From Tenggerimyces flavus (GTDB lineage Bacteria > Actinomycetota > Actinomycetes > Propionibacteriales > Actinopolymorphaceae), in the NCBI RefSeq assembly GCF_016907715.1, contig NZ_JAFBCM010000001.1, positions 2,046,001 to 2,110,000 of the forward strand: a DNA stretch of 64,000 bases. The letters run 5' to 3'. The notes beneath the pieces are model-generated. The model saw only the letters and a list, made by a program, of their open reading frames with translations, did no database searches and was not told where the DNA came from. The position numbers and the translations under genes were made by a program. This document shows positions 19,140 through 26,409 of the stretch, piece after piece (within the stretch, counting starts at the first letter, position 1; the number at the start of each line of letters is the position of its first letter).

Positions 19140-21680
19140 ATGTTCGATCTCGCCAAGCAGACGATCCGCGCTCGCAAGGGTGGCTTTGCCGCCACGTTCA
19201 TCGCCTTGTTCTGTGGTGCCGCGCTGGTGACGGCGTGCGGCATGCTCTTCGAGTCCGCCCTGCGCGGAGGGGTTCCGCCGGAACGGTACGTCGCCGCGAC
19301 CGTCGTGGTCGGCGCGAAGCAGAGCGTCCCGGTGCAGGAGGACGCTGACCGTTATCTCGCCGAGCGGGTGCCCCTGCCGGCGAGCCTGGTCGAGAAGGTC
19401 GACGAGGTCGCCGGCGTCGAACGGGCGATCGGCGACGTCAGCATCCCGATCACGATGGTGGCCGGAGGGAAGCTCGTTCCGGCCATCCGTCCGATCGTGG
19501 CTCACGGTCAGGACTCGTTGCCGCTCGGGCGGTATGGGCTGCAGGCCGGGACGAAGGCGCGAGCCTCCAACGAGGTGGTCCTCGACCTCGCGACGGCGAA
19601 GGCGGCGGGCGCGACCGTCGGCGACGTGGTCCAGCTCGCCGCCGGCTCGAAGCCGAAGTCGTACGAGGTCGTGGGCATCGCCGACCAGGTCGAGCAGGAG
19701 AACCGGCAGTCGAACGTTTGGCTCACCGACGCGACGGCTCGGCAGCTCACCGGTCGACCGACGCAGGTCGACGCGATCGGCGTTGTCGGAGCGTCGGGCA
19801 CGTCGCCCCGGGAGCTGGCGGAACGGATCGAACGCGCTCTCGGCGAGCAGGTCGTGACGTACACCGGGCATCGGCGCGGTGACGTGGAGTTCCTCGACGC
19901 GGGCCAGTCCCGTTCGGAACTCACGATGCTGGCCATCTCGTTCGCCGGCTCGGTGCCGATGATCGCGATGTTGGTGGTCGCGAGCACCCTGACGTTGGCG
20001 ATTCAGCAACGCCGTAGGGAGTTCGCGCTGCTGCGGGCGATCGGGGCGACGCCGCTCCAGGTGCGGCGGATGATCGCCTCCGAGCTGTGGCTGGTGTCGT
20101 TGCTCGCCGGGGTACTGGGGAGCGTTCCGGGGATCGCGGTGGGCTACCTGCTGCGGAACGGGTTCGCCGCGGGTGGGCTCATTCCGCCGGACTTCCAGGT
20201 GGCGTGGAGTCCGCTGCCCATGCTGGCCGCGGTGCTGATGATGGTCGTGACCGCGCAGCTCTCCGGCCTCATCGCAGGGCGGCGCCCGGCGCGGTTGCGG
20301 CCGGTCGACGCGTTCGGCGAGGCGGCGGTCGAGCCTCGTACGTTCAGTCGCAAGCGGCTCGTGATCGGGCTGGTACTCGGCTTCGTCGGCGTGGCCGCAT
20401 CCGCGCTGCCGCTGCTGATCAAGGGCGAGGCGGCGGCCGGTGGCGTGGGCAGCACGATCCTGCTGCTGGTCGTCGCGGTGATCGTGCTCGGGCCGAAGAT
20501 CGCGTCGGCGTCGACGAGCATGCTCGGACCCATCGTCCGGACGTTCTCTGGAGCGAGTGGATATTTGGCGTCAGTACAAGTTTCGACTAACTCTCGTCGA
20601 TTGGGTGCGTCGATCACCCCACTGGTGTTGGCGATCTCGTTCGTCTCGGTGCAGATCTTCATGCAGACCACCACCGCCGCGGCAGCGGTCGCTCAGGCAC
20701 GAGAGGGAACGGTGGCGGACTTCGTGGTCAGCGGTGCTGCCGACCTTTCGCCGGACGTGGTCTCGTCGGTGCGAGAGGTTGAGGGCGTGCGTGCGGTGAC
20801 GCCTATGGTCACGACGCAGGTGATTGCGAAGTACGACTTCGCCGACAGCGTGGAGATCCAGCCGTTCGGCGCGCAGGGAGTCGACCCCCGGCAGCTGTCG
20901 GACACGCTCGACCTGTCGGTGACGTCCGGGCGGCTGTCCGCCCTGGGCGAAGGCACGGTGGCGCTGAGCGAGTGGGCAGCCGGGACGCTCGGTGCCAGTA
21001 TCGGCGACAAGCTGGACCTGACGCTGGGCGACGGTACACCGTTCGCGCCGCGAGTAGTGGCGATCTATCAACGGGGTTTGGGGTTCGGCGACTTCACGAT
21101 GGCTCGCGACGCCGTCCTCCCGCATGTCACGTCGGGGCGTGACTCGGCCGTCCTGGTTCGCGTGACGCCGGGGGCTTCTCGTACAACTGTTGGCGCGGCG
21201 CTCGGCGAGTTGGCCTCGACGTACCCGGGCCTTGCCGTCGCGGATCAGGAAGCCCTGCAGGCGAATCTGCAGCAGAACCTGAAGGCGCAGTCGTGGGGCA
21301 ACCTGCTCGGCACCGCGGTGGTCCTCGGGTACCTGGCGATCGCGATCGCGAACACGTTGGTGCTGGCGACCGCCGACCGGGCGCGCGAGTTCGCACTGCT
21401 GCGGCTCGTCGGCGCGTCGCGGCGCCAGGTGGCGCGGATGATCCGGACGGAGGCGTCCGTGGTGGTGCTGATCGCAGTGGTGGTCGGCTCGTTGATCACG
21501 GTGCCGCCGCTGGTCGGGATCTCGCTGGCGACGACCGGGTCGCCGATCCCGTACGTCCCGCCGCTCGGCTATGCGGCCATCGTCCTCGCGGCTGTCGTCT
21601 TCGGCCTGATGTCGATGACGATCCCCGCTCGCCTCGCCCTACGGACCCGCCCCGTCGACGCCGTCACCGCGGAGGCGTAG
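19140..21680 (+). CDS. ABC transporter permease, FtsX/MacB-like (two FtsX domains)
   Basis: An 846-residue membrane protein with a first helix at residues 17-40 and extracytoplasmic domains before each of two FtsX cores. FtsX core 1 is around residues 265-400 (RRREFALLRAIGATPLQVRRMI) and core 2 around 720-840 (RAREFALLRLVGASRRQVARMI). An intervening helix near 425-470 separates them. The duplicated FtsX design matches bacitracin/antimicrobial-peptide exporters and lipoprotein-type transporters of actinobacteria. It is encoded directly after its ATPase. The substrate is unknown. R1 repeat copy B starts shortly after its stop. Confidence 0.9.
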   Translation: MFDLAKQTIRARKGGFAATFIALFCGAALVTACGMLFESALRGGVPPERYVAATVVVGAKQSVPVQEDADRYLAERVPLPASLVEKVDEVAGVERAIGDVSIPITMVAGGKLVPAIRPIVAHGQDSLPLGRYGLQAGTKARASNEVVLDLATAKAAGATVGDVVQLAAGSKPKSYEVVGIADQVEQENRQSNVWLTDATARQLTGRPTQVDAIGVVGASGTSPRELAERIERALGEQVVTYTGHRRGDVEFLDAGQSRSELTMLAISFAGSVPMIAMLVVASTLTLAIQQRRREFALLRAIGATPLQVRRMIASELWLVSLLAGVLGSVPGIAVGYLLRNGFAAGGLIPPDFQVAWSPLPMLAAVLMMVVTAQLSGLIAGRRPARLRPVDAFGEAAVEPRTFSRKRLVIGLVLGFVGVAASALPLLIKGEAAAGGVGSTILLLVVAVIVLGPKIASASTSMLGPIVRTFSGASGYLASVQVSTNSRRLGASITPLVLAISFVSVQIFMQTTTAAAAVAQAREGTVADFVVSGAADLSPDVVSSVREVEGVRAVTPMVTTQVIAKYDFADSVEIQPFGAQGVDPRQLSDTLDLSVTSGRLSALGEGTVALSEWAAGTLGASIGDKLDLTLGDGTPFAPRVVAIYQRGLGFGDFTMARDAVLPHVTSGRDSAVLVRVTPGASRTTVGAALGELASTYPGLAVADQEALQANLQQNLKAQSWGNLLGTAVVLGYLAIAIANTLVLATADRAREFALLRLVGASRRQVARMIRTEASVVVLIAVVVGSLITVPPLVGISLATTGSPIPYVPPLGYAAIVLAAVVFGLMSMTIPARLALRTRPVDAVTAEA

Positions 21681-21769
21681 GTGCCAGGTTTCCTTCCACA
21701 GAAGCCGAATTGGCGAGGTTGTCCACAGATCCGCGCTGGCGTCTCCGTTAGCGGTGGGGAAGGCGAATC

Positions 21770-21933
21770 CTGGAGTCAGTCGCATTTTCAGCGGCAGGCC
21801 TTGGGGCGCTCCAGCCAGCCGCCGGCTCGGCCCTGCCCGGAAGGCAGTCTGGTCGCCCGATGCGAGCCCGGTGGGTACAGGTGGGGGACAGGCCTCTCGC
21901 CCGGCGGAGCGACTGTTGGGGACAGCCCGCCCC
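21770..21933. repeat. Long repeat R1, copy B
   Basis: This is the second copy of the 164-base R1 core found at 15668, in the same orientation. It is preceded, as there, by CTTCCACAG and TCCACAGATC blocks (from about 21691). Here it follows the FtsX permease on the plus strand; copy A lies upstream of a minus-strand gene, so the two copies do not share one position relative to genes. Confidence 0.85.
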
Positions 21934-22153
21934 CTGGGCGGGGTGCGGGTGCGTGAGATGGGTCTGATGGATTGATCATCAGATGAATCGAGTGAGCGCG
22001 AGATGAACCGCGTCGCTGGCGAGGAGGTGGGCGAGGAGGTGGCGCCTCCATTGCAGGAGGATCCGAGGGCGCGCCAGCGGATGGGGCAAGAGGCTGTTGG
22101 TGGCCAAGAGTGAGCGGACTGGTGCGTAGCGTGAGCCACGTAGGCTCGGGGGT
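21934..22153. other. Intergenic stretch upstream of the HAD-LarE gene
   Basis: About 220 bases without a convincing gene. It contains a small hairpin (TCTGATG at 21963-21969 with CATCAGA at 21977-21983). At its end TAGGCT (22141-22146) sits seven bases before the GTG start of the fusion gene and looks like a -10 element of a leaderless transcript. Confidence 0.45.
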
Positions 22154-23593
22154 GTGGCTGCTGAGCTTGTCGTCGGGTTCGACCTGGACATGACGTTGAT
22201 CGACTCCCGCCCCGGTATAGCCGCGGTGTGGGAGGCGGTCTCGCAGGAGACCGGTGTGTTCATCGACAGCCAGCTCGTCGTCTCCCGCCTCGGTCCACCC
22301 CTCGCCGTCGAGGCCGCGCACTGGTTTCCGGAGCACGAGATCCCGGACGTCGTCGCGCGGTACCGGGCCCTCTACCCCGACCACGCGATCGACAAGGTCG
22401 CGCTGATCCCCGGTGCGCAGGAGGCGTTCGAGGCCGTACGCAAGCACGGCGGGAAGGTCATCGTCGTCACGGCCAAGAACGAACCGCACGCTCGCAGGCA
22501 CCTCGAGCACCTCGGCCTGCACGCGGACGAGGTCGTCGGCGACGCCTGGGCCGAGCAGAAGGGCGAAGCCCTCAAGGCGCGCAACGCCAGCATCTTCGTC
22601 GGCGACCACCTCGGTGACATCGTCGGAGCGAAGACGGCCCACGCGATCTCCGTCGCTGTCCCCAGCGGCCCCATCGGCATGGACGAGCTCCGCGCCGCCG
22701 GCGCCGACGTCGTGCTCGCGGACCTGGCCGACTTCCCGTTCTGGCTGGACGAACACATCCTCACCAGCAGGCTGGAAGCCCTCGAGAAGAGCCTGCAGGA
22801 CGCCGGCTCGGTCCTCGTCGCCTTCTCCGGCGGGGCCGACTCCGCGTTCCTGCTCGCCGCGGCCGTACGAGCGCTCGGAAACGAAAGAGTCGCCGCCGCC
22901 ACCGCGATCTCCGCCAGCCTGGCCGAGGCCGAGCTGGCCCCCGCCAAGCAGTTCGCCGAGGACCTCGGCGTCCAGCACTTCACGCCCGACACCGACGAAA
23001 TGTCGAGCGAGGGCTACCGCGCGAACGCCGGCGACCGTTGCTACTTCTGCAAGGCCGAGCTGCTGGACACCTTGGGGCCGCTGGCCACGCAGCTCGGCCT
23101 CGCGTACGTCGCGACCGGGACCAACGCCGACGACGCAAGAGCTGGGTTCCGGCCGGGCATCCGCGCGGCGCACGAGCGCGGGGCGACCACGCCACTCAAG
23201 GACGCCGGCCTCACCAAGCAGCAGATCCGCGAAGCCTCGAGGCGATGGGGCCTCGCCACCTGGGACAAGCCCGCCGCGGCCTGCCTGTCCAGCCGCATCG
23301 CGTACGGCCTGCAGATCACGCCCGCGCGCCTCGCCCGCGTCGACCAGGCCGAAGCCGCACTCCGCGCCGCCCTGCACGACGAGGGCGTCCACGTCACCAA
23401 CCTGCGCGTCCGCGACGTCGGCGACACCGCTCGGGTCGAGATCGACAAGGAGCTCGTCGAGCGCGTGACCGAATCGGACACTGTCCTCGAAGCGGTCCTC
23501 GCGGCAGGGTTCGACACCGTTGAGGTCGATCCGCGCGGGTTCCGGTCGGGTTCGATGAACGAGATGCTGACCGATCCAGAACGTTATCGGTAG
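22154..23593 (+). CDS. larE: HAD phosphatase-LarE fusion (ATP-dependent sacrificial sulfur transferase)
   Basis: A 479-residue two-domain cytosolic protein. Residues 1-205 are a HAD-superfamily hydrolase with motif I GFDLDMTLIDSR (Asp10, Asp12), motif II VVTAKN and motif IV VGDHLGDI. Residues 206-479 are LarE, which adenylates and sulfurates the pyridinium dicarboxylate precursor of the nickel-pincer nucleotide. The PP-loop is SGGADS (225-230). Cys296 and Cys299 (RCYFCK) and Cys377 (AACLSS) match the three-cysteine LarE type thought to bind a 4Fe-4S cluster. No larA, larB or larC is nearby. The fusion is unusual; the HAD part may act on a nucleotide intermediate (inference). Confidence 0.85.
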   Translation: MAAELVVGFDLDMTLIDSRPGIAAVWEAVSQETGVFIDSQLVVSRLGPPLAVEAAHWFPEHEIPDVVARYRALYPDHAIDKVALIPGAQEAFEAVRKHGGKVIVVTAKNEPHARRHLEHLGLHADEVVGDAWAEQKGEALKARNASIFVGDHLGDIVGAKTAHAISVAVPSGPIGMDELRAAGADVVLADLADFPFWLDEHILTSRLEALEKSLQDAGSVLVAFSGGADSAFLLAAAVRALGNERVAAATAISASLAEAELAPAKQFAEDLGVQHFTPDTDEMSSEGYRANAGDRCYFCKAELLDTLGPLATQLGLAYVATGTNADDARAGFRPGIRAAHERGATTPLKDAGLTKQQIREASRRWGLATWDKPAAACLSSRIAYGLQITPARLARVDQAEAALRAALHDEGVHVTNLRVRDVGDTARVEIDKELVERVTESDTVLEAVLAAGFDTVEVDPRGFRSGSMNEMLTDPERYR

Positions 23594-23678
23594 AGGTCCA
23601 GCGCCCGGACGTCTAGGCTGGGAACGGCCCCCGTCCTCGGGGGTCGCATTGCGTCAGGTTCGATCGAGCGAGGTTTCT

Positions 23679-24062
23679 GTGCCGGCAGGCAAGGTCAAGT
23701 GGTACGACACGGACAAGGGTTTCGGCTTCCTCACCAAGGATGAGGGAGGCGACGTCTACGTTCGGGCTGCCGCGTTGCCGGCGGGAGTGACTGCGCTGAA
23801 GGCCGGTCAGCGCGTGGAGTTCGGCATCGTCGCGGGCCGCAAGGGCGACCAGGCCTTGTCGGTGCGAGTGCTGGACGCGCCCCCGAGCGTGGCCAAGGCG
23901 ATGCGGAAGACGCCGGACGAGATGATCGTGATCGTCGAGGACCTGATCAAGCTTCTTGACGACCTGGAGTCGACGTACCGGCGGAACCGCCATCCGGAGA
24001 GCCGGACGGGGAAGCAGGTGTCGACGGTCCTGCGGGCTTTGGCGAACGAACTCGAGTCCTAG
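23679..24062 (+). CDS. Cold-shock domain protein with C-terminal extension
   Basis: A 127-residue RNA/ssDNA-binding protein. The GTG at 23679 follows GAGCGAGG. Residues 1-65 form the cold-shock OB fold, with KWYDTDKGFGFL (RNP1) and VYVRAAAL in place of the usual VFVHFS (RNP2). A helical extension of about 60 residues follows, as in actinobacterial CspB-like proteins that adjoin DUF3027 genes. A TAGGCT -10-like box (23614-23619) and a CCCCCG/CGGGGG hairpin (23628-23643) lie in the leader. Its last 116 bases overlap the end of the convergent MFS gene on the other strand. Confidence 0.88.
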   Translation: MPAGKVKWYDTDKGFGFLTKDEGGDVYVRAAALPAGVTALKAGQRVEFGIVAGRKGDQALSVRVLDAPPSVAKAMRKTPDEMIVIVEDLIKLLDDLESTYRRNRHPESRTGKQVSTVLRALANELES

Positions 24063-25536
24063 GTCTCACGACCCACACCAGCGCGCCGAGCAGGACCGCG
24101 GCGAACAGGCCGAGACCGAGCTGGGGGATCAGCGGGAGCACGATCCCGATGCCGCCGCCGATGACCCAGGCCAGCTGGAGCAGGGTTTCCGACCGCGCGA
24201 AAACGCTGGTGCGTACGTGCTCCGGTACGTCCCGTTGGATCAACGCGTCCAGCGACAGCTTGCCCATCTGCTGCGCGAGCCCGGCCGCCAACGCCACCAG
24301 CGCGATCGTGATCAGGCCGTAGAACGCGGCCGCGAGTACGGCGAGCCCGCAAGTGGCGGCGAGCAACGCACGGACGACGACCTCGGGGCTGCGCGCTCGC
24401 GTCAACGCACCAGCCGTCGTTCCTGCCAGCGCGCCGATGCCGGCCGCACCCGCGACCACGCCGACCTGCAGCGCGGTCGGGATCGTCGACAGCGGGTGCT
24501 CGCGCAGCAGGAACGCCATGAACATGATCAGGAAACCGGCGAACGCGCGGAACGCCGCGTTCGCACGCAGCGCGAGCACGACCGACGTCGGAACCCCGCG
24601 CAACGTCCGGCCGATGTCGGCGACGCCGACGCCCTCCTCGCCCTCGGAGGAGTCGACCCGGGCGGGCAGCCGGATCGCGAGCACGGTGCCGATGATGAAC
24701 ACCACGAAGCCGAAGCGCAGCGCCCAGTCCGGCCCGACCGCGGACAGTGCGGCGGCGATGCCGGCGCCGATGCCGGTGCCGATCGTGCCGGCGAGGGAGA
24801 TCCGCGAGTTCGCCGTGACGAGCTCGACCTGATCGGGGAGTAATCGGGGTAACGCGGCCGCGCGTGTCACGCCGTACGCCTTCGACCCGACCAGGCAGCC
24901 CAGCGCGAGCGCGTACATGTACGGCTCTTCGGTGATCACCGCGCCCGCGAGCACCCAGCAGAAGAAGCCACGCGCCGCCATCGTGGAGCCGATCGCCCAG
25001 CGCCGGCCGCGGCGGAACCGGTCGAGGAACGGGCCGATCAGCGGCGCGACGATCGCGAACGGCGCCATCGTGATCAGCAGGTAGAGCGCGACCCGGCCGC
25101 GGGCCTCGGCCGACGGAACGGTGAAGAACAGCGTGCCGGCGAGCCCAACCATCACGCACGCGTCGCCGGCCATGTTGACCGCGTGCATCTCGATCAGCTT
25201 CGCGAGGCCGGTCTCGCCCATGCCCTGGGCGTGGGTGACCTTGCGGACCATGCGGGCGGTGCCCTTGGCCGCTCCGGTCGAGGCGCCGGCGATCCTGCTG
25301 CCGGCGGTCTTCATCGCCCGGGTCGCGTTGCCGAAGCGGCCGGTGGTCCCGTTCGACTCGGCTGCCTCCTCCTCCGCCTTGGGCTGCTCAGGCGGCTGCT
25401 TGGGCGGCGGTGGCAGCTCGCGCGGCGGCTGGGGAGGAGGCGTGGGTGGCGCACTTCCGCCCGCCCGCCGGGCGGCTCTGCGGCCGGGCGGACCCAGAGG
25501 CTGGCCGTGTCTGCGCGGCTCGCTGCTGGGTTCCAC
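23947..25536 (-). CDS. MFS transporter with Pro-rich N-terminal extension
   Basis: A 529-residue major facilitator. The first 105 residues are cytosolic, Pro/Ala/Arg-rich, then 12 helices follow from about residue 120 to 485 (LIGPFLDRFRRGRRWAIG resembles the loop 2-3 motif). The start is a GTG at 25536 with AAGG directly before it, so a start further inside is possible. The C-terminal 39 residues after VWVVRPR are Ser/Pro/Gly-rich and are read antisense through the cold-shock gene. Homologues sit beside DUF3027 in many actinobacteria. Substrate is unknown. Confidence 0.8.
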   Translation of the reverse strand: MEPSSEPRRHGQPLGPPGRRAARRAGGSAPPTPPPQPPRELPPPPKQPPEQPKAEEEAAESNGTTGRFGNATRAMKTAGSRIAGASTGAAKGTARMVRKVTHAQGMGETGLAKLIEMHAVNMAGDACVMVGLAGTLFFTVPSAEARGRVALYLLITMAPFAIVAPLIGPFLDRFRRGRRWAIGSTMAARGFFCWVLAGAVITEEPYMYALALGCLVGSKAYGVTRAAALPRLLPDQVELVTANSRISLAGTIGTGIGAGIAAALSAVGPDWALRFGFVVFIIGTVLAIRLPARVDSSEGEEGVGVADIGRTLRGVPTSVVLALRANAAFRAFAGFLIMFMAFLLREHPLSTIPTALQVGVVAGAAGIGALAGTTAGALTRARSPEVVVRALLAATCGLAVLAAAFYGLITIALVALAAGLAQQMGKLSLDALIQRDVPEHVRTSVFARSETLLQLAWVIGGGIGIVLPLIPQLGLGLFAAVLLGALVWVVRPRTRVRSPKPAGPSTPASPSGSPDGGSAGTSTPGRQEA

Positions 25537-25629: not shown

Positions 25630-26409
25630 GTGAGTACCGCAGTCCGGCGCACCGCCAAGTCCCTGAGGCTCGATGCTGCCTGCGCGGAAGCGGTTGAGCT
25701 GGCTCGTGACGCCGCCCTCGAGATGGCAGGCAAGGACGAGTTGGGCGCTCACCTGGGCTGCGTCGCCGACGGTGAACGCGTCGTCACGCACTACTTCGCC
25801 AACCAGAACGCCGCCTACCAGGGCTGGCGCTGGGCGGTCACGGTCGCCCGTGCGCCGCGGCAGAAGCACGTCACGGTCGACGAGGTCGTGCTGCTTCCCG
25901 GTGACGAGTCGGTGCTGGCCCCGGCGTGGGTGCCGTGGTCGGAGCGCGTACGTCCCGGCGACCTCGGTCCCGGCGACCTGCTGCCCACGACCGGCGACGA
26001 CCCCCGCCTCGTACCCGGCTACGCCGAGGCTCCGGCCGACCCGGACGAGGTGAAGCGGGTCGCCGACGAGCTCGGCCTCGGCCGTATCCGCGTGCTGTCG
26101 CCGGTGGGCAAGGACGACGCGGTGTTCCGCTGGTACGCCGGGGACAACGGGCCCGAGTCGCCGATCGCCCAGGCGGCGCCCGGACACTGCTCGACCTGCG
26201 GTTTCATCGTGCGGATGGCCGGCGAGCTGGGAACGGTCTTCGGCGTCTGCGCGAACGAGTACGCCCCGAGCGACGGCAAGGTCGTCTCCCTCGACCACGG
26301 CTGCGGCGCGCACTCCGAGGCGGTGCCGTACGAGGAACCACGACAGCCGGTCGACCTGCCCAGCCACGTGTTGGACACGCTCGGCTTCGACGACATCGAG
26401 CGCTTGTAA
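25630..26409 (+). CDS. DUF3027 family protein
   Basis: A 259-residue actinobacterial protein of unknown function. The N-terminal LRLDAACAEAVELARDAALEMAG and the central YQGWRWAVTVARAPRQK and VLLPGDESVLAPAWVPWSERV stretches are the family hallmarks. The C-terminal part has CSTCGFIVR followed by GVCANE and DHGCGAHSE, four to five cysteines and histidines that could bind zinc (inference). A GTG at 25612 is an alternative start. It is divergent from the MFS gene. The neighbourhood cold-shock protein, MFS, DUF3027 and DUF2530 is conserved in actinobacteria. Confidence 0.85.
   Translation: MSTAVRRTAKSLRLDAACAEAVELARDAALEMAGKDELGAHLGCVADGERVVTHYFANQNAAYQGWRWAVTVARAPRQKHVTVDEVVLLPGDESVLAPAWVPWSERVRPGDLGPGDLLPTTGDDPRLVPGYAEAPADPDEVKRVADELGLGRIRVLSPVGKDDAVFRWYAGDNGPESPIAQAAPGHCSTCGFIVRMAGELGTVFGVCANEYAPSDGKVVSLDHGCGAHSEAVPYEEPRQPVDLPSHVLDTLGFDDIERL

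Follow-up and report, generated by a model that had tools for sequence, protein, structure and literature searches.

A gene in the 64,000-nucleotide stretch of the Tenggerimyces flavus genome analysed here (the window) raises the question of whether a HAD phosphatase-like domain joined to LarE, the sulfur-inserting enzyme of nickel-pincer nucleotide (NPN) synthesis, serves the same pathway as its partner. The first-pass annotation of this DNA had read both domains in one clean frame, and had suggested either a task for the HAD domain in NPN synthesis or that the LarE-like part sulfurates a different substrate. Comparison across many genomes leads us to a reading that we consider probable, namely a neighbourhood fusion, repeatedly broken, between a HAD protein with a role of its own that is not NPN-specific and a LarE of the NPN pathway.

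One reading frame in a conserved gene slot

ORF reading of the 64-kb window confirms that a single open frame of 479 aa, free of internal stops, encodes both domains (Table 1). A Pfam profile scan recognizes HAD_2 in its N-terminal part (2e-16), and in an NCBIfam scan the LarE model TIGR00268 scores 294.5 bits against a cut-off of 150 (5.8e-88, model positions 3-259 of 259). Modelling of the fusion, which the first-pass annotation had proposed, gave a confident AlphaFold2 structure (mean pLDDT 93.4, pTM 0.86; 40 aligned fusions as input), in which residues 191-217 form one unbroken helix that starts where the HAD half finishes and extends into the LarE half, joining the two; the junction is aligned with no gaps in 17/17 fused proteins. 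Alignment A1 was made without L054, which has a stop within its stretch, and alignment A2 consists of 39 loci kept from 80, without L161, which has an ambiguous base. A promoter scan of positions 21600-24200 returned no promoter-like sites; the minus strand has a single terminator-like site, against 0.7 expected.

Table 1. Coordinates of the fusion gene, its domains and motifs, and the neighbouring genes, in window positions.
Feature	Position	Strand	Basis
HAD-LarE fusion gene	22154..23593	+	479 aa, GTG start, stop 23591-23593; full-length homologues
Phosphatase-like HAD domain and its helical cap (residues 7-190)	22172..22723	+	HAD_2 at 9-169; model residues 2 to ~200 match 2ah5, 3mc1, 4ex7
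HAD motif I DLDMT (D10, D12, T14)	22181..22195	+	Residue conservation
HAD motif II T106	22469..22471	+	T in 50/53, S in 3/53
HAD motif III K136	22559..22561	+	53/53
HAD motif IV GDHxxD (150-155)	22601..22618	+	G150, D151, H152, D155 in 53/53
Inter-domain continuous helix, residues 191-217	22724..22804	+	AlphaFold2 model; gap-free junction in 17/17 fused proteins
LarE domain, residues 207-469	22772..23560	+	TIGR00268; LarE structure matches
PP-loop SGGADS (225-230)	22826..22843	+	S225, G226, G227, D229, S230 in 77/77 LarE domains
CxxC pair Cys296/Cys299	23039..23050	+	77/77 LarE domains
Third cluster cysteine Cys377	23282..23284	+	77/77 LarE domains
Cold-shock-domain gene directly 3' of the fusion, start uncertain	23649..24062	+	CSD 8.8e-15, synteny; slot marker, outside the system
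MFS transporter of the conserved neighbourhood	23947..25536	-	MFS_1 2.2e-16, synteny
DUF3027 gene of the conserved neighbourhood	25630..26409	+	DUF3027 3.1e-85, synteny; scan start taken at 25630

The fusion is widely distributed among public genomes. All eight family genomes, with the window's own among them, carry it at full length, and since the other seven (at 70-74% identity) are fused without exception, the case of separate genes in all close relatives, which had been named as a possible refutation, does not apply. The proposed search for the same domain order in actinobacteria was likewise successful: 36 of 296 genomes of the class, the window's own counted, hold the full-length fusion, and with G060, scored as fused although its copy is split in two by contig ends, the number is 37/296, at most five candidates having been scored per genome. 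In a scan of named genomes, the best 80 of 472 relatives matched over both domains in every case (80/80), and include Kribbella, Nocardioides, Actinopolymorpha, Frankia, Embleya, Actinocatenispora and Phytomonospora, together with others. The phylum was searched in 296 genomes at E 1e-30, and among the matches listed the window's own fusion was the only full-length one. Stops occur within 7 of the 29 fetched class loci (L007-L035), all of them C-terminal, at residue 470 or later; 78 of the 80 named-genome loci contain none, and the remaining two have theirs at residue 471 of 472 or 473. A merger of two genes through faulty sequencing or assembly would agree with the separate, overlapping HAD and LarE genes of three genomes (G034, G010 and G052), but a frameshift or assembly artefact is for all practical purposes ruled out by full-length fusions without internal stop in the whole family and in many separate assemblies of the class.

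A plasmid or a phage origin was also rejected, since none of 72,556 plasmid records and none of 50,697 phage records match 80% or more of the query (partial matches occur in 108 and 3 records, respectively). One LarE-like frame, with 39% identity to the LarE half, lies at MT839013.1:857-1660, in an unannotated 4.7-kb record filed as bacteriophage from human faeces, and may be bacterial DNA or else a larE carried by a phage. Another match, in JAJAYQ010000255.1 (L111), is titled as a Spirochaetaceae MAG; its length and match position equal those of contig C254 of G097, a genome of the window's class, and the title seems wrong. No description of the HAD-LarE architecture turned up in the open-access papers searched. 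LarE and HAD are themselves known kinds of protein.

The fetched neighbourhoods reveal a conserved slot upstream of the cold-shock, MFS and DUF3027 genes, which exists in four gene states. In the fusion state, the cold-shock gene is found in the window, L050-L054 (on the other strand in L050) and L056-L062. In the second state, HAD and LarE are separate genes (L038, L039 and L040; cold-shock gene in 2/3), and in all three pairs the TGA that ends HAD shares bases with the GTG at which LarE begins (GTGA), in a frame different from that of the fusion, an arrangement that suggests coupled translation. LarE stands alone in 18 slot loci, with the cold-shock gene downstream in 18/18 and larB or larC in the stretch in 0/18; no HAD frame precedes LarE in these 18, of which L082, L086 and L091 have less than 900 bases upstream to the contig end. 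Finally, HAD stands alone in 13 loci, with the cold-shock gene in 10, and a search for LarE remnants 3' of these 13 HAD genes gave nothing above chance (best E 0.24). LarE of the other type was found at 19 loci in 18 genomes, 16 of the 19 having larB or larC within the fetched stretch. At five loci, L055 and L099 (both of G064, which has two LarE genes), L070, L071 and L097, actinobacterial LarE genes lie beside larB or larC, and these branch separately from most slot-type LarE.

The LarE half and the genes of NPN synthesis

Comparison of 77 LarE domains (37 fused, from the window, L007-L035 and L056-L062; 3 adjacent to HAD; 18 alone in the slot; and 19 of the other type) shows Cys296, Cys299 and Cys377, together with the PP-loop and Ser380, Arg418 and Arg420, to be identical in all 77, and the cysteine set recurs in 40/40 aligned fusions. 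The three-cysteine assignment thus stands, and the cysteines and the SGGADS motif are where the first-pass annotation had placed them. In pairwise alignment, Cys176 of Lactiplantibacillus plantarum LarE falls on Ala376, with Cys377 one residue further, and this position is Ala or Pro in 77/77 domains. PMC9283937 reports the same one-residue shift of the third cysteine with respect to Cys176 in the T. maritima [4Fe-4S] enzyme, and proposes that a Ser/Arg/Arg set binds the phosphate of P2CMN in LarELp; as read from the alignment, Ser380, Arg418 and Arg420 are the counterparts of these residues. When matched to solved structures, the LarE half finds LarE entries with Z up to 26.8, and the [4Fe-4S]-type mmLarE (8cnz) with Z 25.7. 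With T. maritima LarE, as presented in PMC9283937, and with mmLarE (8cnz and 8cp4) it has in common the PP-loop, the CxxC-C cysteines and the phosphate-binding Ser/Arg/Arg, whereas it differs from them in its additional N-terminal HAD domain and in the distance of its gene from larB and larC. L. plantarum LarE (5udq and others) has the same fold, with the top Z of 26.8, a PP-loop and 31-33% identity in structural alignment, but there Cys176 is sacrificed, while here Ala376 occupies its place and three cluster cysteines are present. The residue pattern differs from that of the sacrificial type. We regard this half as very probably a true LarE of NPN synthesis, belonging to the [4Fe-4S] type, and it would bind a [4Fe-4S] cluster.

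The first-pass statement that no lar genes adjoin the fusion is correct for the 64-kb window, where no larA, larB or larC was found, and needs to be supplemented for the contig, on which the suggested search located all three elsewhere. An adjacent larB-larC pair lies at about G000:C1:1282353-1284223, its LarB scoring 259.7 bits with NF033503 (cut-off 175) and its LarC 196.1 bits with LarC1 (cut-off 90) and 140.4 bits with LarC2 (cut-off 50). The same contig encodes two LarA homologues, at 3.60 and 5.51 Mb. With 924.3 bits against a cut-off of 740, one belongs to the LarAH14/15/16 family; the second, a Lar_N protein, passes the Pfam cut-off but does not reach those of the NCBIfam LarA models. 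Apart from the fusion, no LarE in this genome scores above cut-off. A second, truncated LarC-like piece at G000:C1:7111779-7112348 (L037:6798-7331, minus strand), beside an MFS-like frame, covers PF01969 positions 64-235 with 66% identity to the genome's own LarC, and looks like the remnant of a duplicate.

The same association is seen across the class, where LarE occurs in 76 and LarC in 75 of 296 genomes: 71 have both, 5 only LarE, 4 only LarC and 216 neither (Fisher p 6e-57, shared ancestry being ignored). The five with LarE and without LarC (G007, G008, G084, G097 and G152) are all drafts. Among the fusion genomes, LarC is present in 33/37, and was not found in G008, G084, G097 and G152, drafts of 230-850 contigs; among those with unfused LarE it is present in 38/39. 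Because LarE and LarC co-occur in this way, and because the window's genome has larB, larC and LarA, the LarE half very likely makes NPN, and another substrate is unlikely.

LarA itself is distributed more loosely. A Lar_N match at E 0.001 was obtained in 64 of the 296 genomes (61 above cut-off), comprising 30/39 genomes with unfused LarE (29 above cut-off) and 25/37 fusion genomes (23 above cut-off, with G068 and G170 below it). The other 12/37 fusion genomes, the single-contig G166 among them, lack a LarA match. G166, G185 and G219 (1, 4 and 3 contigs) have LarE and LarC with no Lar_N match at E 0.001. Eight genomes (G038, G088, G122, G162, G224, G233, G268 and G276) show the reverse, a Lar_N protein (E 2e-22 to 9e-33) with no LarC or LarE at the thresholds used; all eight belong to one genus (g40, of Frankia's family, f20), G038, G088 and G233 being single-contig assemblies, and their Lar_N proteins may be relatives of LarA that work without NPN.

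The HAD half and the separation of the two domains

Following the DxDxT, Ser/Thr, Lys and GDxxxD pattern, D10/D12/T14, T106, K136 and residues 150-155 are taken by us to be HAD motifs I-IV. D10, D12 and T14 are identical in 37/37 fused, 3/3 adjacent and 13/13 stand-alone HADs, and the catalytic residues as a whole are common to these forms (53/53, with Ser for T106 in three). Since they are the same whether the domain is fused, adjacent or alone, the HAD half is most likely an active phosphohydrolase. Its fold, which includes a helical cap, is matched by 2ah5 (Z 24.5), 3mc1 (Z 23.7) and AlnB 4ex7 (Z 22.7). A profile search of solved structures returned PtkA (6f2x, Protein Tyrosine Kinase A; 2e-17), predicted phosphatases, AlnB (3e-12) and phosphoglycolate phosphatases, with the pyrophosphatase of B. 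thetaiotaomicron lower (4e-8 to 7e-7; structural Z 19.6-20.0). PtkA, AlnB (4ex6/4ex7), the phosphoglycolate phosphatases and this pyrophosphatase (3qu2 and others) have the HAD core and cap in common with it, but the HAD half is far under the equivalog cut-offs tested. It scores 51.3 bits against 225 and 40.8 against 180 with the phosphoglycolate phosphatase models, and 36.7 against 218 (PpaX) and 25.5 against 245 (NF053653) with those of HAD inorganic pyrophosphatases, and assignment to a named phosphatase was rejected on these scores. A closer relative is the stand-alone actinobacterial HAD of L047 (G018), which has 60% identity to the HAD half and the same cold-shock and MFS neighbours, but has no LarE half and comes from a genome without LarE and LarC.

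This relative is not an isolated case, as the HAD occurs outside a fusion or pair in at least 72 genomes, to which G164 and G235 are added, and 69 of the 72 listed have neither LarC nor LarE. The HAD half is therefore kept without NPN genes, which points to a job independent of NPN. Conversely, among the 36 genomes with unfused and unpaired LarE, a HAD orthologue (at least 43% identity across the domain, called by identity and not by tree) was present in five, none of which has its LarE in the slot, and was not found by the HAD search in 31. A HAD match at E 0.001 was obtained in 20 of the 36; of the 31, 16 gave none at this threshold and 15 gave weaker ones (best 36% identity, in G211), taken by their scores for paralogues. 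The genomes with LarE alone in the slot yielded no orthologue (0/18), 14 having no match at E 0.001 and four a weak one. The many-genome comparison thus suggests that the halves can each do without the other, and lends no support to the earlier proposal of a HAD function within NPN synthesis.

In both the HAD tree and the LarE tree, fused and unfused forms interleave. The stand-alone HADs of two Frankia-family genomes and of one Nocardioides-family genome fall within otherwise fused groups (support 99), and two Frankia-family rows with LarE alone fall within a fused group of the LarE tree (support 98). Placing all fused forms in one clade is rejected (p-AU 5e-63 for HAD, 4e-58 for LarE) in quick IQ-TREE runs on matched segments with 33 (HAD) and 32 (LarE) fused rows, the test leaving out L092, L094 and all other-type LarE. 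From this pattern we infer one old fusion followed by repeated loss of either half, with larC mostly lost along with the LarE half. Repeated fusion at the same place could have left the same pattern instead, and the choice between the two was judged from the gap-free shared junction alone.

What the fusion may mean

In the reading that we prefer, the LarE half, of the three-cysteine [4Fe-4S] type, would insert sulfur into P2CMN to give P2TMN while ATP is converted to AMP and PPi, would work with LarB and LarC encoded elsewhere, and would serve the unlinked LarA homologues. The HAD half would be a catalytically intact capped HAD phosphohydrolase with its own role, not specific to NPN. The two genes would once have been neighbours of like orientation within an old actinobacterial gene block. 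They would then have merged into a single frame, with a rigid helix linking the halves, before many lineages dropped one half or the other. Against such independence stand the active-site residues of the HAD, intact in every fused form compared, and the persistence of the fusion in many families; together with the start-stop overlap of the separate genes, these amount to more linkage than a neutral accident needs. Other points that weigh against the preferred reading are the 4/37 fusion genomes in which LarC was not found, the 12/37 that lack a LarA match, and the weaker HAD matches of 15 of the 31 genomes scored as lacking the orthologue.

Such linkage would be accounted for if the HAD half assisted LarE by hydrolysing PPi, or by dephosphorylating AMP or a dead-end, mis-made pyridinium nucleotide, so as to drive the reaction or clear its by-products, with the stand-alone orthologues carrying out a related general clean-up. 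Fusion and adjacency, the start-stop overlap in 3/3 unfused pairs, the intact active site and the presence of the B. thetaiotaomicron pyrophosphatase among both structural and profile matches agree with such coupling; since the LarE reaction yields AMP and PPi, according to PMC11796402, a pyrophosphatase role would also be chemically sensible. We nevertheless regard this coupling, the chief alternative, as rather unlikely, given the 31/36 unfused, unpaired LarE genomes in which no orthologue was found, the absence of LarC from 69/72 of the listed genomes with the HAD outside the fusion, the PpaX and NF053653 scores far below cut-off, and the better profile matches to PtkA, predicted phosphatases, AlnB and phosphoglycolate phosphatases than to the pyrophosphatase. 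The other proposal of the first-pass annotation, extended to a LarE-like half that sulfurates something other than P2CMN after the HAD half has prepared that substrate, appears still more improbable: the window without larA, larB and larC and the 12/37 fusion genomes without a LarA match would fit it, but LarC accompanies the fusion in 33/37 genomes, the sole LarE above cut-off in a genome with larB and larC is the fusion, and the counterparts of the P2CMN-phosphate residues are conserved in 77/77 domains.

The HAD fusion widens the range of known LarE architectures, and, if the coupling just considered were true, the HAD half would be an integral module that drives or repairs NPN synthesis. 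The conserved block in which many actinobacteria keep LarE lies far from larB and larC, and operon-based searches therefore overlook the gene. Finally, the fusion is not proof of a common pathway, since HAD and LarE separate here in both directions.
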